Position numbers and translations under genes: made by a program. Below are positions 49,101-61,473 of a stretch of 64,000 nucleotides of DNA, piece after piece. Source of the DNA: an uncultured Williamsia sp. GTDB taxonomy: Bacteria > Actinomycetota > Actinomycetes > Mycobacteriales > Mycobacteriaceae. Positions within the stretch are counted from its first letter, which is position 1. Every line of letters starts with the position of its first letter. The notes beneath the pieces are model-generated. The model worked only from the letters and a program-made list of their open reading frames with translations, did no database searches and was not told the origin of the DNA. Where the stretch lies: assembly GCF_947494875.1 (NCBI RefSeq), contig NZ_CANLWM010000002.1, positions 372,001-436,000 on the forward strand, written 5' to 3'.

Positions 49101-49499
49101 TTACCAGACGTAGGCGAGGACTTCGCCGCCCACGCCCTGGTTGGCTGCCTGGCGGTCGGTCAGCAGGCCGGAGGACGTGGAGATGATCGCCACGCCCAGG
49201 CCGCCGAGCACCTTCGGCAGGTTGGTGGACTTCGCGTACACCCGCAGGCCGGGCTTGGAGACGCGCCGCAGACCGGCGATGCTCCGCTCACGGCTGGGGC
49301 CGTACTTCAGGGTGACGACGAGGTTCTTGCCGACCTCGGCGTCCTCGGTGCGGTACTCGGTGATGTAGCCCTCGCGCTTGAGGATCTCGGCGATGTTCAC
49401 CTTGATCTTCGACGACGGCAGGGTCACCTCGTCGTGGAACGCCGAGTTGGCGTTGCGCAGACGTGTCAAGAAGTCTGCGATCGGATCAGTCATGGTCAT
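49101..49499 (-). CDS. rpsH: Ribosomal protein uS8
   Basis: Central 30S assembly protein, also the translational repressor of the spc operon in E. coli. 132 residues, [18 protein letters not shown] to [21 protein letters not shown]. It is now the first ribosomal gene after an 8.5-kb insertion that separates it from rpsN. A near-consensus promoter stands at 49811-49783. Alternative start at 49493. Confidence 0.97.
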
Positions 49500-49843
49500 G
49501 AGTGACCGTCAACCTTTCTCGCAGTGGTTCCCATACAGCACGCTCGCGCCGGTTCCGCCAGTGTCTGTGACACCAGCGGCCTGTCCCGTGACGTGGTGGG
49601 CCTTCCACGAAGTCGGATTCGTGTTCCGCACCGACAGGCGTGCAGGTGCGGGGCCGTACTCCAGCGGTGCTCGCGCAGCCGCCGGCATCTGCGGCCGTCA
49701 GGCCGAGAAGAAGAGCGTCCCCCGGATCCGGAGACCCCGACGAGCGCACGGCACGACGAGCCCCGGTTCGGGCAACCGCTCAAGTGTAGAGAAAGCCGCG
49801 CGTGCGACCAAATCAGTCGTGGTCAGGGGCGCGCGGGGCCGCC
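49500..49843. other. rpsH leader and promoter region
   Basis: Contains the rpsH promoter and a leader of about 275 nt. No convincing gene is seen; the open frame that overlaps the rpsH start is Arg/Pro-rich and looks like a shadow. The long leader could carry an S8-type or other regulatory fold, which I could not resolve by eye. Confidence 0.5.
49783..49811 (-). promoter_or_regulatory. Promoter driving the separated spc genes
   Basis: On the minus strand TTGGTC (49811-49806), a 17-base spacer and TACACT (49788-49783) match the housekeeping sigma-70-type consensus well. It is oriented towards rpsH, about 280 nt upstream of its start. This promoter would be required because rpsH no longer follows rpsN. 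Confidence 0.65.
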
Positions 49844-49975
49844 TCAGGCGCCGAGCGGGTGGACGAGGAGGCCGAACACGAGGGCGATCGGTTGCAGCAC
49901 CGCGGTCGTCACCAGGTCCCTCGGGTGGTGAGCCATGAAGTCCACCAGGACCCCGAACAGCGCGTCGGTCGTCAT
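49844..49975 (-). CDS. Possible 43-residue hydrophobic peptide
   Basis: ATG 49975, nine bases after the EthD-like stop. The peptide has a polar start with a central hydrophobic helix (LQPIALVFGLLVHPL) and could be a small membrane protein. There is no clear ribosome site; translational coupling to the upstream gene is possible. It is too short to be certain. Confidence 0.35.
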   Translation of the reverse strand: MTTDALFGVLVDFMAHHPRDLVTTAVLQPIALVFGLLVHPLGA

Positions 49976-49984
49976 GGCATGAAG

Positions 49985-50659
49985 TTATCCCGTTGCACCG
50001 GTCCCGACCGTGTGGACCCGCCGCACGGTCGGCACGACGTCGATGTCGCGATGGGCGCCGATCGACACGACGCTGTCGAGCATCGCCGCCATCCGTCGGC
50101 TCAACTCCTCGTCGTTGCCGGCGCTGCCGTAGAAGGCATGGGGATCGTGGGCTGCGGCAACCGGGAAGAGTTCCTCGACGATGCCGTCGACGTGCTCGAC
50201 GTCGTCGGTGACCGCCCGCACCGCGATGTTCTGCACGTAGCCGAAGGTGCCCTGGGTGGCGATGGCCACCGGCGTGTGGCTGCCGATCCACCGCGCGAGC
50301 CACTCGTCGTGGGTCAGGTCCGGGGGCCGCCGCAGGAACGCGACGTTCGCCATCGCGTCCGCCGGCTCACCGTCGGGCGTGGTCGGCGGACGAATCGGTG
50401 TGCGGCGCTGCACCTCCCAGCCCACCACACGCCGGGCGACCTCGTGCAGCGCCGCCTCGACGGGAGCGGGGTCGTCGGCGTCGACGGTGACCACCGCGTC
50501 GATCGGCTCCGGCATGGCCTGCAGCGCCAGAGCACCGGCGAAGCGTGGATCGCCGGCGACGTTGGTCTGCACGGTGCGGGCGCCCGTGCGTCGATGCAGT
50601 GCGGGGTCGAGAACAGCCTGCGGGTCGTCGCACCACACCGCGAACACGAAGTCGGACAT
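49985..50659 (-). CDS. EthD-domain protein
   Basis: EthD-type dimeric alpha/beta barrel protein, function unknown. About 224 residues from ATG 50659 (50671 also possible). The EthD signature is in the middle: RRPPDLTHDEWLARWIGSHTPVAIATQGTFGYVQNIAVR. The first 90 residues are Ala/Asp-rich. EthD proteins often act in degradation pathways, but neither this gene nor its neighbours suggest a substrate. First gene of the spc insertion on the minus strand, divergent from the lipase. Confidence 0.75.
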   Translation of the reverse strand: MSDFVFAVWCDDPQAVLDPALHRRTGARTVQTNVAGDPRFAGALALQAMPEPIDAVVTVDADDPAPVEAALHEVARRVVGWEVQRRTPIRPPTTPDGEPADAMANVAFLRRPPDLTHDEWLARWIGSHTPVAIATQGTFGYVQNIAVRAVTDDVEHVDGIVEELFPVAAAHDPHAFYGSAGNDEELSRRMAAMLDSVVSIGAHRDIDVVPTVRRVHTVGTGATG

Positions 50660-50708
50660 GGGGCTGATCATGCTCTCCGACGTCGCCCGAGCTGGTTCAC
50701 TTCACCGC

Positions 50709-51938
50709 ATGAGCCGATTCGGGATCGCGCGCGTGCTCGTCGCGGTGCTCAGCAGTGTCGTCATGGCCGCCCTCGCCGGGCCCGGCCCCGCCGGGGCCGC
50801 ACCTGCTGCGGCAGCGCCGATCCCGTCGGCCGACCCGTTCTACACATGGTCGGGGCCGCTCGCCGGTGTCGTGCCCGGCACGGTGCTGCGCACCCGGCCC
50901 GTCGCCTTCGCGCAGGCGGGCGTGAGCGCGCCGATCTCGTCGACGCAGCTGCTGTATCGGACGACCGCTGACGACGGCTCCCCGTCGACGACGGTCACCA
51001 CCGTCCTGCGGCCGCCGACGCCGGGTCCCACCCGGATCCTGAGCTATCACACCGCCTATGACGCGCTGGGCTCGCAGTGCGACCCGTCGTACACCCTCCG
51101 CGGCTATGCCCCGACCCGCGTCGCGACGGCGGAGCAGGCGGTCATCGCGGGCTGGCTCGCGGCCGGATACACCGTCGTCGTGCCCGACTACGAGGGTCGT
51201 GACCTGCGGTGGACCGTCGGACGCGAATCCGGGTACGCCGCGCTCGACGGGATCCGGGCTGCGGAACGATACCTGCGCCGGTCCCCGGCGACGCCCGTCG
51301 GGCTCCTCGGCTACTCGGGCGGGTCGGTGCCGACGCAGTGGGGTGCCGAACTCGCACCGCGGTACGCGCCGGAGCTCCGGATCGTGGGCTCCGCGGCCGG
51401 CGGGCTGCCGGTCGCTCCCGCGAACAATCTGTCCTACGTCAGCGGCAACCCGAGCTGGGCCGGGGTGATCCCGGCCCTCGCCGTCGCCTATCAGCGCGCC
51501 TACGGCCTCGATCTCGCGTCGTTCCTCTCGCCACGCGGGCTCGCGGCCACCGGGGCGGTGAGCGACCAGTGCATCGGTGTGTTCGCCGGCGAGTTCGGGG
51601 CGCTCACCGACGCCGAGATGGTCCGTCCGCCCTACCGGTCCCTGCTCGACGTGCCCGCGGTCCGCGCGGCCGTCGCGCGGAACACGATGGGGACCGCGGG
51701 GACACCCCGTGCGCCGATGCTCCTCGCCGTCGGGCAGAGCAATGCGCACGGCGACACCGTCATGCTCACCGCCGACGTCGCCGGACTGGCGCACACCTAC
51801 TGCGGTCGCGGCGCACGCGTCGTCTACGAGCGCTACGCCGGCGCCGACCACACCGCCGCGTTCCCGCGCTTCGAGGCCTCCGCCGTCCGCTACCTCTCCG
51901 ACCGGTTCGCCGGGCTGCCGGCGCCGTCCACCTGCTGA
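50709..51938 (+). CDS. Secreted lipase, LIP family
   Basis: Exported serine lipase of the secretory lipase (LIP) family known from fungi and actinobacteria. The signal peptide runs about 1-30 (VLVAVLSSVVMAALAGPGPAGAAPAAA). The nucleophile elbow GYSGG contains Ser 203; the catalytic His is in GADHTAAF near the end, and the Asp is probably in the AHGDT region. 409 residues. Cysteine pairs suggest disulfides. It lies 44 bp upstream of the nuclease gene, same strand, but is probably unrelated in function. Confidence 0.88.
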   Translation: MSRFGIARVLVAVLSSVVMAALAGPGPAGAAPAAAAPIPSADPFYTWSGPLAGVVPGTVLRTRPVAFAQAGVSAPISSTQLLYRTTADDGSPSTTVTTVLRPPTPGPTRILSYHTAYDALGSQCDPSYTLRGYAPTRVATAEQAVIAGWLAAGYTVVVPDYEGRDLRWTVGRESGYAALDGIRAAERYLRRSPATPVGLLGYSGGSVPTQWGAELAPRYAPELRIVGSAAGGLPVAPANNLSYVSGNPSWAGVIPALAVAYQRAYGLDLASFLSPRGLAATGAVSDQCIGVFAGEFGALTDAEMVRPPYRSLLDVPAVRAAVARNTMGTAGTPRAPMLLAVGQSNAHGDTVMLTADVAGLAHTYCGRGARVVYERYAGADHTAAFPRFEASAVRYLSDRFAGLPAPSTC

Positions 51939-51982
51939 CCCGTCGCGCCGCCTGCGAGCCGGGTGGATGGGACAGTGGTCGC

Positions 51983-53008
51983 GTGACCGCCGCTCCGACC
52001 GTTCCCGGATCGGTCACCCGGGTCGTGGGCGTCCGTGCGCTGCTGGGCGAGGATCCTCTGCCTGAGGAGCAGTTGCTCCTCGGGATCGACCTCACGAGCA
52101 CGTCGTCCGCGCGATCGGTCGTCACCGAAGTCGACGCGGCATTGGAGGCGGTCGCGCGGGGGCTGTTCCCGTCCTGGTTGCCCGGGGCCGACGCCCTCGA
52201 CGGCGCGGCGGGACTGGACCGGTCCGCGGCGCAGAAGCTGGCCGATCGACTCGCCACGGAGGCCCCGGACTACGCGCCCTACGTGCGTGCACTGGCCGTC
52301 GCCGCGCTGCACCGCCAGCAGCTCGGCGGCGACATCGCCCCCGAGCTCCGGCTCCGTGGGGCCCTCCGTGTCATCGCGCGCTCGTACTCACGCGCGTCGG
52401 TCGTCGTGGTGCTGCGCCCATGTGCCCTCTCCCCAGCGGGAGTGCTCTCCGATGCCGCCGAGTGGATCGCCGTCCACGGGGGTGCGGCCGTGTGGATTGA
52501 TGTCACCGACGTCGACGGTCTCGGCCGCTTCCCGCTCGTGGACCTGACGCACTCGGCCACAGCAACGGAGGGCCCCGTCGCGTCCACCGTGCCCGTGGAG
52601 CGGGTCACCATCCCGCCACTGGCGGGCATGCCCGCTCCAAACAGTCCCGCCGAGCAGTTGCTGGAGCGACACCTGTCCTCGCTCACCTGGGCGTCGGGAC
52701 GCCGGTGGAACACCCTCGTCGAGACCGGTTCACTGCTCGACGCGCCGATGCGTGTCGACCTCTTCTGGGCCGACGCGATGGTCGTCGTCGAGATCGACGG
52801 CCCCGATCACCGGACGCCCGGGAAGTACGCGGCCGATCGGGTTCGCGACAACCGGTTGCAGCGTATCGGAATGCTCGTGCTCCGCTACACGAACGAGCAG
52901 GTGGCCGACGGCGTTGCCGCGGTCGTGTCCGAGTTGCACCAGGTGCTCTTCGCGCGTGGCACGCCCGTACAGTTCCCACCGGGGCCGATCCCGGCACCGA
53001 GAGGATGA
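51983..53008 (+). CDS. DUF559-like PD-(D/E)XK nuclease protein (component A of a three-gene module)
   Basis: 341 residues from GTG 51983. The first 210 residues are an alpha/beta region I do not recognise. The C-terminal domain (about 220-325) has the layout of DUF559/Vsr-like nucleases: helix SPAEQLLERHL (Glu 224), Asp 259 in RVDLFW, then VVVEIDGPDH with Glu 270, Asp 272 and His 276, and a basic helix ADRVRDNRLQRIG. This is a plausible metal-dependent nuclease active site. It is seven bases upstream of the winged-helix gene, so they form one transcript. Confidence 0.8.
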   Translation: MTAAPTVPGSVTRVVGVRALLGEDPLPEEQLLLGIDLTSTSSARSVVTEVDAALEAVARGLFPSWLPGADALDGAAGLDRSAAQKLADRLATEAPDYAPYVRALAVAALHRQQLGGDIAPELRLRGALRVIARSYSRASVVVVLRPCALSPAGVLSDAAEWIAVHGGAAVWIDVTDVDGLGRFPLVDLTHSATATEGPVASTVPVERVTIPPLAGMPAPNSPAEQLLERHLSSLTWASGRRWNTLVETGSLLDAPMRVDLFWADAMVVVEIDGPDHRTPGKYAADRVRDNRLQRIGMLVLRYTNEQVADGVAAVVSELHQVLFARGTPVQFPPGPIPAPRG

Positions 53009-53015
53009 TCGAGCA

Positions 53016-53666
53016 GTGACCCACCCCCGTCTCACCGGGACCCAGAGCAGCGTGTTGTTCGTGTTGATGGCCCGCGCCGAGGAGGTCCGCAATCCCGACC
53101 TCGCCCGGTTCGGACCGGAACTGAAGAAGCCCGACCGCGAGAAGCTCGTGGGGGCAGGACTCGTGGAGGTCGGCCGCGACGGGCGCGCCATGACGGTGTC
53201 GTTGACGGACGCCGGGTGGGCATGGTGCGCCGAGGAACTCGGCCACGAGCCGCCGGACCGCGCGACGCCGCAACTCAAGGCGCTCTACACCGTGCTCGCC
53301 GGACTCGGCCGTCACCTGACGAGCAGCGACCGTCGCATCTACGAGGTGTTCACCGCCGAGGATCCCGCCGCCGCGCCGTCCACGACGCAGACATCGATGG
53401 GCGTGAGTGTCGTCGACCGCATCCGCGATGCGTACGGTCGCCGCGCATCGCGACCCGGGTCGTGGGTGTCGCTGGCAGTCCTGCGCGCGGACCTCACCGA
53501 CCTCGACCACGCCGACTTCGACGACGCGGTTCGTGCTCTCGAACGCGAGGCGGGCGTCGGGGTCATCCCGCAGGAAGACCAGGGTCGTCTCACCCCGGCC
53601 GATCGCGACAGCGCCGTCGTGATCGGGTCGCAACGGTGCCACCTCATCTCGATCGACGCCCGATGA
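53016..53666 (+). CDS. Winged-helix protein (component B of a three-gene module)
   Basis: 216 residues. The first 75 residues read as a winged helix (TQSSVLFVLMARAEE, KPDREKLVGAGLVEVGRDGRAMTVSLTDAGWAW), similar to DNA-binding adaptor subunits. The middle third looks helical, and the rest (VVDRIRDAYGRRASRPGSWVSLAVLRADLTDLDHADFDDAV) resembles a second helix-turn-helix. No enzyme motif. Its stop overlaps the start of the ATPase gene by four bases (ATGA). Could bridge nuclease and ATPase or bind DNA (inference). Confidence 0.7.
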   Translation: MTHPRLTGTQSSVLFVLMARAEEVRNPDLARFGPELKKPDREKLVGAGLVEVGRDGRAMTVSLTDAGWAWCAEELGHEPPDRATPQLKALYTVLAGLGRHLTSSDRRIYEVFTAEDPAAAPSTTQTSMGVSVVDRIRDAYGRRASRPGSWVSLAVLRADLTDLDHADFDDAVRALEREAGVGVIPQEDQGRLTPADRDSAVVIGSQRCHLISIDAR

Positions 53667-56600
53667 CGGCATTCCACACGAGCCTCGCCCGAACGGCCCT
53701 GGAGTCGGTGCGACTGAGCTGGGCACCGACACCCGACGACGTCTGGCAACCGCAGGAGGAGCTGCACGTCGAAGGGCTCCATGACGCCGTGCTCGGCGAG
53801 CTCCGGAGGGCGTTCGCCGACGCCGTCACAGACGGCGGCAGTCCGCTGGGCGTCGTGGTGCAGGGCCCCGCAGGGTCGGGCAAGACCCACCTGCTCGGCC
53901 AGATCCGCGAGCACGCCCAGCGGTCCGGGGGCTACTTCTTCCTCGTCCGCCTGCTCGACGGCACCGACTTCTGGCGCTCGGTCGTCGTCGGGATGCTGGA
54001 GGACCTCGCGCGGCCGACACCTCATCACCCGTCGCAGCTCGTCGACCTCATCGACGCCCTTGCCCGCGAGGCCGCCCTCGACGCGGACGTCACCGCCGCC
54101 CTCACGGGTCAGGCGCCACTGACCCGCGAGACGCTCGAGGAATTCGTCGATGCCGTCTACCGGCGACACCCCCGCCACCGCCGGCGGTCTCAGCATGTCT
54201 TGCGCGCCCTGGTACTCCGCGCCGCGAGCGACTTCGCGCTGCAGGACCTCGGCGACACCTTCCTGCACCTCGATCCCGGACTCGAGGACGAGCTGGCGGA
54301 ATGGGGTATCCGACAGGTCCGCCTCGGCTACGAGGAGATCGCGCAGAACATCTCGCGCCTGCTCGCCCTGCGTGGCCCGACCGTCATGGCCATCGACCAG
54401 ATCGACACCCTCGTCGCGCTGGGTGCCCACCCGGACGGCCGGGCCGCCGTGGAGCAGTTGGCGCACGGGCTGATGGCGATGCGGGAGACGATGGCACGGA
54501 CGGTCGCCGTCCTCTCGTGCATCAGTGCGTCGTGGGTCATCCTCGAGGAGCACGTCATCAGATCGGTGTCGGATCGCTTCCGCGTCCCGCCGCCCCTGCA
54601 GCGTCCCGACGACCCCGATTTCGGTGTTCGCATGCTCGCCAAACGATTCCGCGCCGGATACTCGTCGATCGGTTTCGAACCGCCGTACCCCTCGTGGCCG
54701 GTCACGCCGGAGGCGTTCGGCGAGTCCACCAGGTTCACGCCGCGCGAACTCCTCATGGCAGCGGATCGGCATGTCAACGCCTGCCTGCGATCCGGGGAGA
54801 TCAGCGAACTGCATGAGCTGAGTCCCCAGGCTCCCGCCGCCGATGCAGCCACGGAGGACCGTGACGCGCTCACCGACCTCGACGATCGGTTCGCCGACCT
54901 GAGCGCGGCGGCCGACCCGAGCGCGGCGCTGCACGCCGACACCGAGGACACCGTCGTCCCCGGCCTGCTCCGCGTCGCGTTCGCCGCGTGGCTCGATCAA
55001 CGCGGCGGCGCCGGCGAGTTCCGGATCGACTCCCCACCCAGCGCGAAGCCAGCGCTGCACGGCCGCATCCGCCGCACCCTCGACGCGGACACCGACCGCG
55101 AGTTCTCGTGGGGTTTCCGATCAGTCGAGAGCCTGAACGCCGTCGCCGCGCTGAGTCGCGTGCGCAAAGCCGCGACGGCGGCCGGAGTCACCACCCGCAC
55201 ACCGGATCACGCTCTGGTCCTGCTCCGCTCGACGCCGTGGCCGTCGGGGCCGAAGACCCGACAGACATTGGACGAACTCGTCGACAACGGGGGTGTGCTC
55301 GTGACATGGTCTGCCGACGACGTCCGCACACTCATGGCGTTGGCGGCCCTGCTCGACGAGCGTCCCGACGACCTCATCCCCTGGCTCGCCTCGCGACGAC
55401 CCGTCGACGGCATCGCATTCCTCGACGTCCTCGACGGCACATCGTCGGACCTCTCCTCCGCTCCGCGCGTCGCGGACGTGTCGACGCCCGCAGCCGACAG
55501 CGTGCCCGAGCCGATCCGGGAGCCGGTCGGTGACCGTCGCGACCCGCCATGGGCCCCGGCGGTCGACATCCCGGCGACCGCCCCCGTCGACGCGATCCCC
55601 CTCGGCAGCGCGCGCGGCCGTCCTGTCACCGTCGACCTGCCGGCCCTGCGGAAGCACACGGCCTTGTTCGCCGGATCCGGCTCGGGGAAGACGGTTCTCA
55701 TACGCCGCATCGTCGAGGAGTGCGCCATCGCCGGGGTGTCGTCGATCGTGCTCGACGTGAACAACGACCTCGCGCGCATGGGTGAGCCGTGGCCCGAGGG
55801 GTCGCGGGAGTGGGGTGCCGACGACGCCGACCGGGCCCGTCGATACTTCGAGGGGACCGAGGTGGTCGTCTACACGCCGGGTCGTGCATCCGGACGGCCG
55901 CTGTCGTTCCAACCCCTGCCGGATTTCCGGGGCCTCACCGACAACCCAGAAGAGTTCGACGAAGACGAGTTCGAGGCCGCCGTGGACTCCGCGGTCGCGT
56001 CTCTTGCACCGCGCGTCAACGCGGAGGGCACGTCCGCCACGGCGAAGCGGCGCCAGGCGATGCTGAACCAGGCGGTGCGGTGGTTCGGTCGACGCGGTGG
56101 AGGCACCCTCCGCGACCTCATCGACCTGCTCGCCGAACTCCCGCCCGGTGTGAGCGACCTCCGTCAACCGGGCAGGCTCGCATCCGACATCGCAGATGGA
56201 CTGCGAGCTGCGATGGCGAACGACCCCATGCTCGGCGGCGACGCCGACGCGATGGACCCCGCGACGTTGTTGACGCCCTCCCCCGGCCGTCGCGCGCGGG
56301 TGTCGGTGATCAACCTGGCGGGGTTGCGCAGCGACGAGAAGCGCGACAACTTCGTCAACCAACTGCAGATGGCTCTGTTCGCCCACATCCGACGGCATCC
56401 GGCCGGCGACCGCCCGCTCGGCGGCCTCTTCGTCATGGACGAGGCCCAGAACTTCGCCCCCGCAGGGAGGTTCACGGCGTGCACACAGAGCACGCTCGCG
56501 CTGGCCTCGCAGGCGCGCAAGTACGGCCTCGGCCTGGTGTTCGCCACGCAGGCACCGAAGGGCCTGAACAACAAGATCCCCGGCAACGCGTCGACACAGT

Positions 56601-56821
56601 TCTTCGGCAAGCTGACCTCCCCCGTGCAGATCGCGGCGGCCCGCGAGGTCGCGAGTTCGAAGGGCAGCGAGATCGGCGATGTCGGACGCCTCACGGCAGG
56701 TCGGTTCTATGCGTCGATCGACGGCGCCCCGTTCGTCGACCTGCAGACACCGCTGTGTCTGAGCCACCACCCGGCGAGCCCGCCCGCGGAGGAGGAGGTT
56801 CTCCACATCGCCCGCGGCTAG
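53663..56821 (+). CDS. Double P-loop ATPase, AAA-type plus HerA/FtsK-like (component C of a three-gene module)
   Basis: 1,052 residues. N-terminal AAA/ORC-like domain: Walker A GPAGSGKT at 68-75, then a FFLVRLLDGTDFW strand and Walker B VMAIDQID at 241-248. The middle is helical and acidic (about 400-640). The C-terminal HerA/DUF87-type domain has Walker A AGSGSGKT at 670-677, DVNNDLARMG after the second strand, Walker B LFVMDEAQNF with Asp 926 and Glu 927, and ATQAPKGLNNKIPGNAST as sensor. HerA-type ATPases pump DNA or assemble with nucleases. The combination with an AAA domain is unusual. Confidence 0.88.
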   Translation: MTAFHTSLARTALESVRLSWAPTPDDVWQPQEELHVEGLHDAVLGELRRAFADAVTDGGSPLGVVVQGPAGSGKTHLLGQIREHAQRSGGYFFLVRLLDGTDFWRSVVVGMLEDLARPTPHHPSQLVDLIDALAREAALDADVTAALTGQAPLTRETLEEFVDAVYRRHPRHRRRSQHVLRALVLRAASDFALQDLGDTFLHLDPGLEDELAEWGIRQVRLGYEEIAQNISRLLALRGPTVMAIDQIDTLVALGAHPDGRAAVEQLAHGLMAMRETMARTVAVLSCISASWVILEEHVIRSVSDRFRVPPPLQRPDDPDFGVRMLAKRFRAGYSSIGFEPPYPSWPVTPEAFGESTRFTPRELLMAADRHVNACLRSGEISELHELSPQAPAADAATEDRDALTDLDDRFADLSAAADPSAALHADTEDTVVPGLLRVAFAAWLDQRGGAGEFRIDSPPSAKPALHGRIRRTLDADTDREFSWGFRSVESLNAVAALSRVRKAATAAGVTTRTPDHALVLLRSTPWPSGPKTRQTLDELVDNGGVLVTWSADDVRTLMALAALLDERPDDLIPWLASRRPVDGIAFLDVLDGTSSDLSSAPRVADVSTPAADSVPEPIREPVGDRRDPPWAPAVDIPATAPVDAIPLGSARGRPVTVDLPALRKHTALFAGSGSGKTVLIRRIVEECAIAGVSSIVLDVNNDLARMGEPWPEGSREWGADDADRARRYFEGTEVVVYTPGRASGRPLSFQPLPDFRGLTDNPEEFDEDEFEAAVDSAVASLAPRVNAEGTSATAKRRQAMLNQAVRWFGRRGGGTLRDLIDLLAELPPGVSDLRQPGRLASDIADGLRAAMANDPMLGGDADAMDPATLLTPSPGRRARVSVINLAGLRSDEKRDNFVNQLQMALFAHIRRHPAGDRPLGGLFVMDEAQNFAPAGRFTACTQSTLALASQARKYGLGLVFATQAPKGLNNKIPGNASTQFFGKLTSPVQIAAAREVASSKGSEIGDVGRLTAGRFYASIDGAPFVDLQTPLCLSHHPASPPAEEEVLHIARG

Positions 56822-56902
56822 GACTGAGCCCTTGTCGGTGGCGTGTGATTGCCTCCCCAGCAACCGATCGAACGCATGTTCGGTCTTCGTGGAGGAGGGC
56901 CC

Positions 56903-57508
56903 ATGACCGACCACAGGATCACCGTTCCGGGACTGCCGCGCTGGCACCCGGACCCGCGAGTCCGCGAGACGATCGACCGCATCCGACGCTTCGGATGGGC
57001 CGTCAACGCCGTCTCCGACATCTGCGAGCAGTGTGAGGCGGCAGGCGAGACGCCGGAATGCTCCTTCGCCTACACCGTGGGCCTCGCGCTCCGCGGTGCG
57101 CCGGAACTCGCCGTGTACGGGCTGCCATCGACCACGGCGGGCGCGGTGCTCAACGAGATGTCCGACCTCCTCGCCGTGGAGTACTGGAAGAACCTCGTCG
57201 ACGACCACGAGGAGATCACGCTCGACGCCCTCGACGTCCCGGTGCGCCTCATCGAGATGGTCGACACCCTCGACCTCATCCACGCCCGGGCGGTCTTCCC
57301 GAATGTCCCTGCACTGCAGGTCGTCTGGACCGACGGGAAGCTCTTCTTCCCGTGGGAAGAGGGATACACCCTGCTCGACGACCAGCAACCGGTTCACGGC
57401 ATACCGGACACGGCGTCGTCTCACCGGCCTGTCGGGCCACGCGTCATCCGCTCGGCAGGCGGACCGAATCGCGCGCAGCGGCGGGCGAGGAAGCGTCGGC
57501 GGCGGTGA
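56903..57508 (+). CDS. DUF4262-domain protein
   Basis: Function unknown; DUF4262 proteins are small cytoplasmic proteins found across actinobacteria and proteobacteria. 201 residues from ATG 56903, with GGAGGAGG upstream. The domain is seen in CSFAYTVGLALRGAPELAVYGLP followed by LNEMSDLL and ALQVVWTDGKLFFPWEEGY. The last 40 residues are Arg-rich, ending RRARKRRRR. It is 81 bp after the ATPase gene and probably transcribed with it, although its connection to that module is unproven. Confidence 0.8.
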   Translation: MTDHRITVPGLPRWHPDPRVRETIDRIRRFGWAVNAVSDICEQCEAAGETPECSFAYTVGLALRGAPELAVYGLPSTTAGAVLNEMSDLLAVEYWKNLVDDHEEITLDALDVPVRLIEMVDTLDLIHARAVFPNVPALQVVWTDGKLFFPWEEGYTLLDDQQPVHGIPDTASSHRPVGPRVIRSAGGPNRAQRRARKRRRR

Positions 57509-57551
57509 CGGCAGAGGCGACCCGGTCAGCTGTTCTGTAGCGTCTTCCGAC

Positions 57552-57923
57552 ATGCAGGTACCGCGTCGGGTCGCGACGGTGAACAAGCACGTCACCAACC
57601 GGATCCAGGGTCTCTGGGCGTGGCTCGTCCCGCCCTGGGCCGTCGTGCATCACACCGGTCGCACGTCCGGGCGCGCGTACCGGACCCCGGTCGTGGGGTT
57701 CAGCACCCCGCAGGGCTTCGCGATCCCACTGCTCTACGGACCGCAGACCCAGTGGGCGAAGAACCTCCTCGCCGCCGGAGGCGGTGAGGTGCAGCAGGGC
57801 GGAAGGCGGCGGGCGTTGATCGGACCGCGTGTCGTCCCGGCGTCGGAGATCACCGCGACAGGCGTCGCGGGGAGGTACACCCGGGCCGCACCGTCGGTGC
57901 TCATCGGCACCCTCCGACCCTGA
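57552..57923 (+). CDS. Deazaflavin-dependent nitroreductase family protein (Ddn-like)
   Basis: Small F420-binding split-barrel protein of the Ddn family. 123 residues. The family core RTSGRAYRTPVVGFSTPQGFAIPLLYG and WAKNLLAAGGGEVQQGGRR are evident. Typical reductases of this type act on quinones or nitro compounds. It is the last gene of the spc insertion and ends 18 bp before a strong terminator. Confidence 0.85.
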   Translation: MQVPRRVATVNKHVTNRIQGLWAWLVPPWAVVHHTGRTSGRAYRTPVVGFSTPQGFAIPLLYGPQTQWAKNLLAAGGGEVQQGGRRRALIGPRVVPASEITATGVAGRYTRAAPSVLIGTLRP

Positions 57924-57940
57924 CGGCAGGCCTCAGACGC

Positions 57941-57977
57941 ACGACGACCCCCGACCGGAGTGGTCGGGGGTCGTCGT
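57941..57977. terminator. Strong bidirectional terminator after rpsN
   Basis: A perfect 16-bp stem (ACGACGACCCCCGACC with its complement) and a 5-base loop lie between the Ddn-like gene and the rpsN stop. It would end both transcripts. It should block read-through from the proximal spc genes into the insertion. Confidence 0.85.
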
Positions 57978-57993
57978 GGCTTCGAGCGTCAGA

Positions 57994-58179
57994 TCACCAG
58001 CTGGACTTCTGCACACCGGGCAGCTCGCCGGCGTGGGCCATCTCGCGCAGGCAGATCCGGCACAGGCCGAACTTGCGGAACACCGAGTGCGGACGACCGC
58101 ACTTCTGGCAGCGGGTGTAACCGCGCACGGCGAACTTCGGCTTCTTGTTGGCCTTGTTGACCAGAGCCTTCTTTGCCAT
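57994..58179 (-). CDS. rpsN: Ribosomal protein uS14, zinc-binding type
   Basis: 61-residue S14 type Z, with zinc ligands Cys 24, 27, 40 and 43 (RCQKCGRPH...LCRICLRE). This is the zinc-dependent paralogue (rpsZ/rpsN1). It is the last gene of the proximal spc transcript, one base after rplE, and rpsH would normally follow. Confidence 0.97.
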
Positions 58180-58180
58180 C

Positions 58181-58759
58181 TCAGTTGTCCTTCACGCTGT
58201 TGTCTTTGAACGGGAAGCCGAGGTGACGCAGCAGCGCCCGGCCCTCGTCGTCGTTGGTCGCCGACGTCACGACGGTGATGTCCATACCGCGCGGCCGGTC
58301 GATGTCGTCGATGTTGATCTCGTGGAACATCGACTGCTCGTTCAGGCCGAACGTGTAGTTGCCGTGACCGTCGAACTGGCGGTCGGACAGACCGCGGAAG
58401 TCGCGGATACGCGGGAGGGCGATCGACACGAGGCGGTCGAGGAACTCCCACATGCGGTCGCCACGGAGGGTGACGCGCGCGCCGATGGGCATGCCCTCAC
58501 GCAGCTTGAACTGCGCGATCGACTTGCGGGCCCGACGGATCTCGGGCTTCTGGCCGGTGATCAGGGCGAGGTCGTTGACCGCCCCGTTGATCAGCTTGCC
58601 GTCGCGGGCGGCGTCGCCGACACCCATGTTGACGACGACCTTCACGACGCCCGGGATCTGCATGACGTTCGCGTAGCTGAACTCCTGCTGCAGCGAGTCC
58701 TTGATCTCCGCGCGGTAGCGCGCCTTGAGGCGCGGCTGTGCGTTCTCGGTGGTGGTCAT
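58181..58759 (-). CDS. rplE: Ribosomal protein uL5
   Basis: 5S rRNA-associated 50S protein. 192 residues with the L5 core [63 protein letters not shown] and [20 protein letters not shown]. The N-terminal 15 residues are variable. One base separates it from rpsN and from rplX. Confidence 0.98.
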
Positions 58760-58760
58760 G

Positions 58761-59078
58761 TCAGATGTCCTTCCCGGTCTTGCGGGAGATGCGGACCTTC
58801 TTGCCGGTCTCCTCGTCGATCCGGTAGCCGACGCGAGCCGGCGTGCCGTCGGAGTCGACGACCATCACGTTCGAGACGTGGATGGGGGCCTCGGTCACGA
58901 CGATGCCGCCCGAGGAGGCACCGCGCTCGGTCTGCGCCGCAGAGGTGTGCTTCTTGATCCGGTTGACGCCCTCGACGAGGACGCGGTTGCGCTGCGGGTA
59001 GGACTCGATGACCTTGCCCTTGGCGCCCTTGTCCTTGCCCGAGATGACGATGACGGTGTCGCCCTTGTGGACCTTCAT
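58761..59078 (-). CDS. rplX: Ribosomal protein uL24
   Basis: Assembly initiator of the 50S subunit, binding near the tunnel exit. 105 residues with the KOW motif [28 protein letters not shown] and [10 protein letters not shown]. Lies between rplN and rplE, one base gaps. Confidence 0.98.
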
Positions 59079-59079
59079 C

Positions 59080-59448
59080 TCACAACACCTCCGGAGCCAG
59101 CGAGACGATCTTCATGAAGCGCTTGTCGCGCAGCTCGCGACCGACGGGCCCGAAGATGCGGGTACCGCGCGGGTCGCTCTCGTTGCGGAGGATCACCGCG
59201 GCGTTCTCGTCGAAGCGGATGTAGGAGCCATCCGGACGACGGCGCTCCTTGGTGGTGCGGACGATGACGGCCTTGACGACCTCACCGCGCTTGACGTTGC
59301 CGCCGGGGATCGCGTCCTTGACGGTGGCGACGATGACGTCGCCGATTCCCGCGTAACGGCGGGACGAGCCACCGAGCACACGGATGCACAAGATCTCCTT
59401 GGCACCGGTGTTGTCGGCGACCCGCAGGCGTGACTCCTGCTGGATCAC
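59080..59448 (-). CDS. rplN: Ribosomal protein uL14
   Basis: 50S protein that forms an inter-subunit bridge. 122 residues from GTG 59448, following GGAGAG; the start gives [36 protein letters not shown] and the usual length. First gene of this spc segment. rpsQ does not precede it, as is also the case in M. tuberculosis. Confidence 0.97.
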
Positions 59449-60135: not shown

Positions 60136-61473
60136 GTGAGCGATCTCCGCCCGGGCGAGAACCGACCACTGGCCGGTTCGAGCGTGTCGGTGTCCGTCTC
60201 GTGCGCGGTCCCGGTCGACGTGTCGGCGCTGCTGCTGGCCGACAGCGGCCGCGTGCGCAGCGACGCCGACCTCGTCTTCTTCAACAACCCGGTCGGCCCC
60301 GGTGTGCAGTACCGGCACGGCGCCGGCGCGCCCGACGTCGTCGCGATCGACACCGCCGCCGTCCCCGCCGACGTCACCACGGTCGCGGTCACCGCGAGCC
60401 TGGACGGATCGGGACCGGCCACGTTCGGTGCCGCGCCGACGCTCGTCGCGACGGTCTCCGCCGGCGGAGAGACCACCACCTTCCAGATGACCGGCCTGAC
60501 CACCGAGTCCGCCGTCGTGTGCGTCGAGATCTACCGCCGCGGGGACGCGTGGAAGGTGCGCGCCGTCGGGCAGGGCTACGACGACGGGCTGGCCGGGATC
60601 GCGGTCGCCTACGGGATCGACATCGACGACGAGCCCGCTCCTGCCGCCCAACCAACGGCTCCGGCCGCCCAACCAACGGCTCCGGCCGCCCAACCGACGG
60701 CTCCTACTGCCCAACGAACGGCCCAGGGAGGCCCCCCGATGCACAGTGAACTGTTCGCCCCGCAGTACGCCGAGGCCTCCGAGCCCGGGATCCAGAAGCA
60801 GGGCAGCAAGATGTGCAAGGTCGCGCTCAACGGCGAGGTGATGGCGCGGACCGGATCGATGGTCGCCTACCAGGGCGACCTCAGGTTCGAGGCGCAGGGT
60901 TCCGGCGGCATCGGCAACATGATCCGCCAGCGACTCTCCGGCGAGGGCGTGCCGCTGATGAAGGTCGTCGGACGCGGAGACCTGTTCCTGGCCAACGCAT
61001 CCACCGACGTCCACCTCATCGATCTCGACGGCACGGACGGGCTCACCATCAACGGCGCCAACGTGCTCGCATTCGAGTCGACGCTGTCGTATCAGATCGC
61101 GCGCGTGCAGGGCGCGGCCATGGCGAGCAACGCCGGCCTGTTCAACTGTGTCTTCACCGGACGCGGCCGGATCGCCATCACCACCGACGGGACGCCGGTG
61201 GTGCTGAACGTCGACCAGCCGACCTACGCCGACCCGCAGGCCGCCGTGGCGTGGTCGTCGAGTCTGCGCACGGGGGTGAAGCAGAACGACTCGTTCAATC
61301 TCGGCACCCTCATCGGCCGCAGCACCGGCGAGCGGTTCACCCTGTCGTTCTCCGGGCAGGGCTTCGTCATCGTGCAGCCGTCGGAGCTCCCGCCGGGCGG
61401 CCTGATCGGCGGCACCGGCGCCGGCGAGCAGTCCGGTGTCGGCGGGGCGCTCGGCGGCCTGCTCGGCCGCTGA
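60136..61473 (+). CDS. TerD-AIM24 fusion protein
   Basis: 445 residues from GTG 60136. Residues 1-165 form a TerD-like, Ca-binding-type domain (DADLVFFNNPVGPGVQYRHGAG, ESAVVCVEIYRRGDAWKVRAVGQGYDDGLAGIA). A linker of three near-identical AAQPTAP repeats (about 171-191) follows. The C-terminal AIM24 beta-prism domain spans about 205-420 (FEAQGSGGIGNMIRQRLSGEGVPLMKV, GRIAITTDG). The tail is Gly-rich. No signal peptide. TerD domains relate to tellurium and stress responses; AIM24-like domains are membrane-associated. Not linked to a ter operon here. Confidence 0.85.
   Translation: MSDLRPGENRPLAGSSVSVSVSCAVPVDVSALLLADSGRVRSDADLVFFNNPVGPGVQYRHGAGAPDVVAIDTAAVPADVTTVAVTASLDGSGPATFGAAPTLVATVSAGGETTTFQMTGLTTESAVVCVEIYRRGDAWKVRAVGQGYDDGLAGIAVAYGIDIDDEPAPAAQPTAPAAQPTAPAAQPTAPTAQRTAQGGPPMHSELFAPQYAEASEPGIQKQGSKMCKVALNGEVMARTGSMVAYQGDLRFEAQGSGGIGNMIRQRLSGEGVPLMKVVGRGDLFLANASTDVHLIDLDGTDGLTINGANVLAFESTLSYQIARVQGAAMASNAGLFNCVFTGRGRIAITTDGTPVVLNVDQPTYADPQAAVAWSSSLRTGVKQNDSFNLGTLIGRSTGERFTLSFSGQGFVIVQPSELPPGGLIGGTGAGEQSGVGGALGGLLGR
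60646..60708 (+). repeat. Coding tandem repeat in the TerD-AIM24 linker
   Basis: Three copies of a 21-bp unit (GCCCAACCAACGGCTCCGGCC, third copy diverged), encoding AAQPTAP repeats. A fourth partial copy follows. Likely to vary in number between strains. Confidence 0.85.

Follow-up and report, generated by a model that had tools for sequence, protein, structure and literature searches.

In a 64,000-nucleotide stretch of an uncultured Williamsia genome (contig NZ_CANLWM010000002.1, positions 372,001 to 436,000; hereafter the window), three tightly coupled genes encode a DUF559 nuclease, a tandem winged-helix protein and an ATPase in which an AAA-type domain is fused to a HerA/FtsK-type domain. 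The comparison of related sequences indicates that this trio evolves as a unit, yet the nuclease can be lost; in three loci, a gene of the AbiU/AIPR type stands in its place. On balance, we judge that the trio probably constitutes a DNA-translocase/nuclease complex directed against invaders. It is best called a variant of the Orc/CDC6-coupled HerA/FtsK capture systems, the closest known class, as these are predicted in the accessible text of PMC10853773.

Architecture of the operon

All three genes lie on the forward strand. The nuclease gene (51983–53008, 341 residues) is followed after a 7-bp gap by the winged-helix gene (53016–53666, 216 residues), which in turn shares an ATGA overlap with the ATPase gene (53663–56821, 1052 residues). 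The three parts and their tight coupling had been put forward in a preliminary description of this DNA and were confirmed on the window sequence.

The nuclease is assigned to the Vsr-like, PD-(D/E)XK-type DUF559 family by a Pfam match to residues 258–322 (52754–52948, + strand; E 4.9e-9), and its profile matches the PDB entry 3hrl over positions 227–331 (E 1.5e-12). Asp259, Glu270 and Asp272, which the preliminary description had singled out, are kept in 31/31 sequences, and His276, Asp285 and Asp289 are likewise invariant. Residues 1 to about 205 form a family-specific N-terminal part; mean identity to the window nuclease among 30 relatives is 31% for the N-terminal part and 44% for the C-terminal part. 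Neither the nuclease nor the winged-helix protein matched SIR2 or DUF4297, the effectors of the SIR2-HerA, DUF4297-HerA and Nezha systems, in Pfam, PADLOC or NCBIfam, or NurA in scans of Pfam/NCBIfam-type libraries. No methylase family was found in the scans of the trio partners, no genome-wide methylase search having been made.

The predicted structure of the second protein comprises two winged-helix units. The first, which has fold matches to TubR and MarR, spans residues 8–63 (53037–53204, + strand); the second, delimited by the secondary structure of the model only, spans residues about 132–213 (53409–53654, + strand). Matches of the winged-helix alignment to calmodulin entries in the PDB (best E 0.00064) were set aside as chance, the model and its fold matches pointing to a winged helix.

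The ATPase combines three regions, as delineated by Pfam, the structure model and fold matches. The AAA-type P-loop domain, its C-terminal helices included (approximately residues 40–377; 53780–54793, + strand) matches AAA_22 and AAA_16 in 37/37 family ATPases and carries an invariant Walker A (residues 68–75), Walker B (Asp245-Gln-x-Asp248) and Arg305. The HerA/FtsK-type translocase domain (residues 640–1052; 55580–56818, + strand) carries Walker A at residues 670–677, Walker B at Asp926-Glu927, Arg952 and Gln963. Both P-loops are invariant in 37/37 ATPases, and the earlier reading of an AAA N-terminus joined to a HerA/FtsK C-terminus with two Walker A sites is confirmed. In the fold search, the two best matches of the HerA part were archaeal HerA and the DndH C-domain. 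The AAA part is a candidate member of the Orc/Cdc6 clade; the list of fold matches was filled by the HerA part. RecA matches of the AAA part were attributed to P-loop similarity; values down to 2.9e-30 came solely from fusion chains with several RecA copies, and single RecA chains gave 1.6e-4 or weaker.

Between the two ATPase domains lies a middle domain (residues 428–592; 54944–55438, + strand), a candidate inactive restriction endonuclease (REase). Its modelled order of helix, three strands, helix, strand, helix, strand, helix is REase-like, and residue counts in the family alignment revealed no conserved D...ExK set. The domain matched no PDB sequence significantly (best E 0.15), and its profile matched neither the DUF559 nuclease alignment nor the winged-helix alignment. 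No winged helix-turn-helix (wHTH) was seen between the middle domain and the HerA part, where residues 594–640 are disordered in the model.

Conservation of the unit and exchange of the nuclease

We examined gene order in 60 loci, defined as distinct full-length ATPases with at least 2 kb of upstream flank; 49 entries with short flanks, partial ATPases, duplicates or distant pairs were left out, and pieces weaker than 1e-40 were skipped. The ATPase gene is adjoined by the winged-helix gene in 60/60 loci and by the DUF559 nuclease in 43/60, counts drawn from loci that are not independent, about a third being close kin within Rhodococcus/Rhodococcoides. The possibility raised at the outset that the members might occur only separately is thus contradicted by the 43 linked trios. 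Across 43 loci, the pairwise distances for one protein of the trio track those for the others (correlations of 0.78–0.91), and the co-diversification persists beyond ribosomal-protein distance (partial Mantel 0.83–0.90, 25 loci, 0/2000 permutations); it is on these correlations that the view of the trio as one evolving unit is founded.

The remaining 17 loci differ in what accompanies the pair. In three Actinoplanes loci, an AIPR/AbiU gene lies directly downstream of the ATPase gene in the nuclease's stead, at a spacing of −1 to +19 bp; these loci were marked by hand, with Pfam applied to one and PADLOC singly to two, and AbiU was matched by three members in the neighbour scan described below. 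The nuclease and AIPR are both missing from the other 14 of the 60. Two of these possess a PDC-M02B-like gene 22–28 bp upstream, two a divergent pair encoding a Trypco1 protein and a WD40 protein of 1335–1343 residues (with a trypsin-like start, judged by eye), and the other ten no recognisable effector gene. Ten nuclease-less genomes were searched; the full nuclease family was absent from all, and four had only C-terminal DUF559 matches.

Across 53 genomes of two genera, the ATPase is present in 51 and the nuclease in 47, never without the ATPase; the nuclease is kept in 36/36 ATPase-bearing genomes of the Rhodococcoides-like genus, and the full family is missing from 4/15 in the Tsukamurella-like genus. 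Between the window and W. serinedens, the ratio of nonsynonymous to synonymous substitution rates (dN/dS) is 0.35 for the nuclease, 0.28 for the winged-helix protein and 0.15 for the ATPase. The winged-helix/ATPase pair is under purifying selection also where the nuclease is missing: dN/dS is 0.10 for the ATPase and 0.12 for the winged-helix protein in one nuclease-less comparison (L079/L081, of the Tsukamurella-like genus, genes free of stops) and 0.17 and 0.24 in another (L035/L036, with L035 from Gordonia tangerina), with synonymous divergence near or below 1 in both. The weakest constraint, 0.54, was found for a divergent winged-helix pair (L053/L075). Retention of the pair without the nuclease implies either that the two proteins are active by themselves or that they borrow another effector.

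Two arrangements at the ribosomal slot stand apart. Locus L065 (610–9579) holds tandem divergent copies: the first is a complete trio, the second a winged-helix/ATPase pair that lacks the nuclease. In genome G444, the ribosomal copy lies in two pieces without nuclease (L087, L088), and an intact trio elsewhere is a possible replacement.

Distribution among genomes

One collection scan returned 39 relatives in Williamsia, Gordonia, Rhodococcus/Rhodococcoides, Actinoplanes, Herbidospora and one Xanthobacter. Matches were found in 40/151 genomes of the family, broken copies included, and in 7/396 genomes of the phylum, one of these a partial HerA-only match. Among genomes drawn around the Xanthobacter genome, 5/398 matched, at full length in that genome itself and in G699. 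Nonomuraea and a Methylobacterium megaplasmid likewise carry complete trios. At two more distant loci, both alphaproteobacterial (L117, L118), the gene for an AAA-HerA protein (960 aligned columns, probability 100) is accompanied by a different DNA-binding-like gene, with no DUF559 profile match.

Of 72,556 plasmid records, three matched, and only the 1.57-Mb Methylobacterium record looks like a real megaplasmid. The other two appear chromosomal: one record measures 11.85 Mb, and Tsukamurella 'plasmid 22' (L093, NZ_LR134464.1) carries S10-spc ribosomal genes (rpsJ to rplN, rplX, rplE and S14) and is probably a piece of chromosome. Two Rhodococcus loci (L037 and L065, strains IEGM 1409 and 1381) are labelled Chroococcidiopsidaceae, Cyanobacteriota, in the tree; their ribosomal genes and record names disagree with this label, which indicates a taxonomy mix-up.

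Within Williamsia the ATPase is present in 4/8 genomes, in one of them (L107) in another slot, after a TerD gene. It is present in 36/37 genomes of the Rhodococcoides-like genus and in 15/16 of the Tsukamurella-like genus. The earlier expectation that such islands vary between strains is therefore borne out in Williamsia, where an empty site also exists, and fails in the other two genera; the trio is both variable and resident.

Genomic setting

The empty site is clean: in G480, a related Williamsia genome, the mobA-like and DUF4262 genes adjoin without the 6.15-kb block that comprises the trio and an esterase-like gene, the latter named by eye (50679–56832). In the window, about 8.5 kb of cargo with a foreign look interrupts the spc ribosomal cluster (region 49101–59448), with rpsH (49101–49499) on one side and rpsN (57994–58179) on the other. 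The trio usually occupies either this rpsN/rpsH interval or the rplN/rpsQ interval; both slots look like cargo sites because they are filled by differing genes across related genera. A ribosomal setting, judged in loci whose flanks were fetched and labelled by us, applies to 37/58 single-piece ATPases in the tree. Mapped onto the ATPase tree, this label changes twice, versus 7.5 times in shuffles (0/500 as low), a comparison in which near-copies favour clustering.

The suggestion that the trio might sit in defence-rich loci was not upheld for most flanks, the commonest setting being ribosomal gene clusters. Around 17 non-ribosomal loci, the 118 closest neighbouring proteins matched 47 PADLOC models (E up to 1e-8); the figures given here are drawn from the best 25 of these 47. 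Matches traced to their members were AbiU, PDC-M02B, HEAT-ARM_XIII, subtilase and RecD/PDC-S. At the level of the model alone, three neighbours matched mad3 (best E 4.6e-55), two mad8 (4.7e-24) and one PDC-M02A (4e-60), and Csa3 was matched as well. As the scan had no control set, no enrichment of defence genes is claimed.

A TerD-AIM24 gene (60184–61473; Pfam TerD E 4e-26, AIM24 E 1.5e-35) borders the window's ribosomal cluster on the rplN side, and in eight Rhodococcus-type loci it follows the ATPase gene by 27–33 bp. It was rejected as a fourth member because trio-less Williamsia loci (L104, L106, L108, L109) have it at this ribosomal boundary too; the DUF4262 gene is likewise present without the trio. 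Where the slot that the trio fills in the window is without it in other Williamsia genomes, a separate DUF559 gene of varied length lies beside DUF4262 (L108, 10752–11546; L106, 7663–7914; L107, 4271–4564); in this group, two of the DUF4262 matches across three genomes contain an internal stop.

Relationship to described systems

The preliminary description knew of no system with this set of parts; a class with a like set is, in fact, predicted in PMC10853773, in whose accessible text the Orc/CDC6-coupled HerA/FtsK capture systems consist of an Orc/CDC6 AAA+ ATPase, an inactive REase, an active REase, HerA/FtsK and a wHTH. These parts are stated there to occur 'in single or multiple polypeptides', with the inactive REase preceded by the AAA+ core and followed by a C-terminal wHTH, and the active REases to fall into 'two distinct families', one shared with AbiJ. 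The parts of the trio resemble this list: the HerA/FtsK ATPase domain and the wHTH component are shared, the middle domain is a possible inactive REase, and DndH supplies one of the two best fold matches of the HerA part. The accessible text contains neither DUF559 nor AIPR, and its section on the capture class describes no genus-core retention or ribosomal siting, both of which are seen for the trio. The trio family may itself be among the examples of that work; a search of the literature outside subscription papers and preprints for DUF559 with HerA gave only papers that are unrelated by title, and the trio cannot be called unpublished.

BREX-related capture (BRC) systems, as described in the accessible part of PMC12839542, similarly bring together ORC/Cdc6 AAA+, HerA/FtsK and DNA-binding wHTH modules; PglZ serves them as effector, alongside DUF4007 and STAND components, and library scans matched none of these in the trio. 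The SIR2-HerA and DUF4297-HerA anti-phage complexes differ from the trio, in which HerA shares one polypeptide with an AAA domain, the winged-helix protein is encoded separately, the effector is DUF559 or AbiU/AIPR, and, going by the model and Pfam limits, the usual N-terminal barrel region appears to be lacking before residue 640.

Proposed function and alternatives

Based on the anatomy of the proteins, we infer a mechanism in which the tandem winged-helix protein would bind DNA and, together with the AAA domain, position or load the complex; the HerA domain would form a ring motor that pumps DNA, and the DUF559 nuclease would cut the DNA brought to it. The winged-helix protein and the AAA-HerA ATPase would then make up the sensing and translocating core, with the nuclease as an exchangeable output, since AbiU/AIPR replaces it in some lineages. 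No other clue points as well as this exchange to an output aimed at invaders, the AbiU/AIPR family being tied to abortive infection in the accessible part of PMC3506569. A defence role is favoured because the trio's partners are elsewhere defence-type genes, AbiU/AIPR downstream in three loci and PDC-M02B-like upstream in two.

Several observations weigh against an anti-invader complex. The fourteen loci with neither nuclease nor AIPR still hold a pair under selection; no relative was found in 50,697 phage records, and none was among the 28 pattern matches of a viral-contig scan; typical neighbours are ribosomal or metabolic genes; and near-fixation in two genera is unusual for an accessory defence system. 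The last point leaves as a serious rival, albeit a rather unlikely one, a chromosomal machine for DNA repair or end processing akin to the HerA-NurA end-resection complex, in which HerA would feed the nuclease with broken ends, loaded by the AAA and winged-helix parts. A HerA motor and a nuclease are common to both; the trio departs from HerA-NurA in its DUF559-type nuclease, its additional AAA and winged-helix parts and partners without a NurA match. It is, moreover, absent from most relatives in the family and the phylum, a patchy distribution, and its nuclease is replaced by AbiU/AIPR or missing in places, all of which argues against repair.

The winged-helix/AAA-HerA pair could alternatively be the working unit by itself, blocking, for example, the segregation, replication or transfer of foreign DNA, with the nuclease as an option. 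Such autonomy would account for a pair that is invariably adjacent, that is retained at low dN/dS in the Tsukamurella-like genus after loss of the nuclease, and that has two distant alphaproteobacterial counterparts with no DUF559 neighbour. We regard it as improbable, given that the nuclease co-diversifies strongly with its partners, is universal among the ATPase-bearing genomes of the Rhodococcoides-like genus and has invariant catalytic residues. That the trio is part or a derivative of the methylation-associated defence system MADS is highly improbable. The HerA-type ATPase is related to mad8 of PADLOC (E 6.4e-22, with 37/37 relatives matching likewise), and some neighbours match mad3 and mad8; the mad8 match covers only the HerA part (residues 645–989), and at E up to 1 the nuclease and the winged-helix protein match none of the mad models. 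When the ATPase alignment was used as a profile against the 118 neighbours, nothing HerA-like emerged, which leaves the two mad8 neighbour matches unexplained.

Implications

Beyond an anti-invader complex as such, we tentatively raise a broader possibility, which we consider less probable: a resident genome-surveillance machine that would have been fixed for long next to ribosomal operons in entire genera. Its constant winged-helix protein and AAA/inactive-REase/HerA motor would act on DNA even without a nuclease, and its effectors (DUF559, AbiU/AIPR and perhaps PDC-M02B-like) would be swapped. If the trio is indeed a translocase/nuclease complex of the capture type, the class would gain a compact three-gene example in culturable soil actinobacteria, and the natural variants that lack the nuclease or carry another effector would let sensing, pumping and killing be separated. 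The trio also casts doubt on the custom of treating any operon that joins a nuclease to HerA as a mobile island, since a likely anti-invader module here comes close to being a core gene set in two genera.

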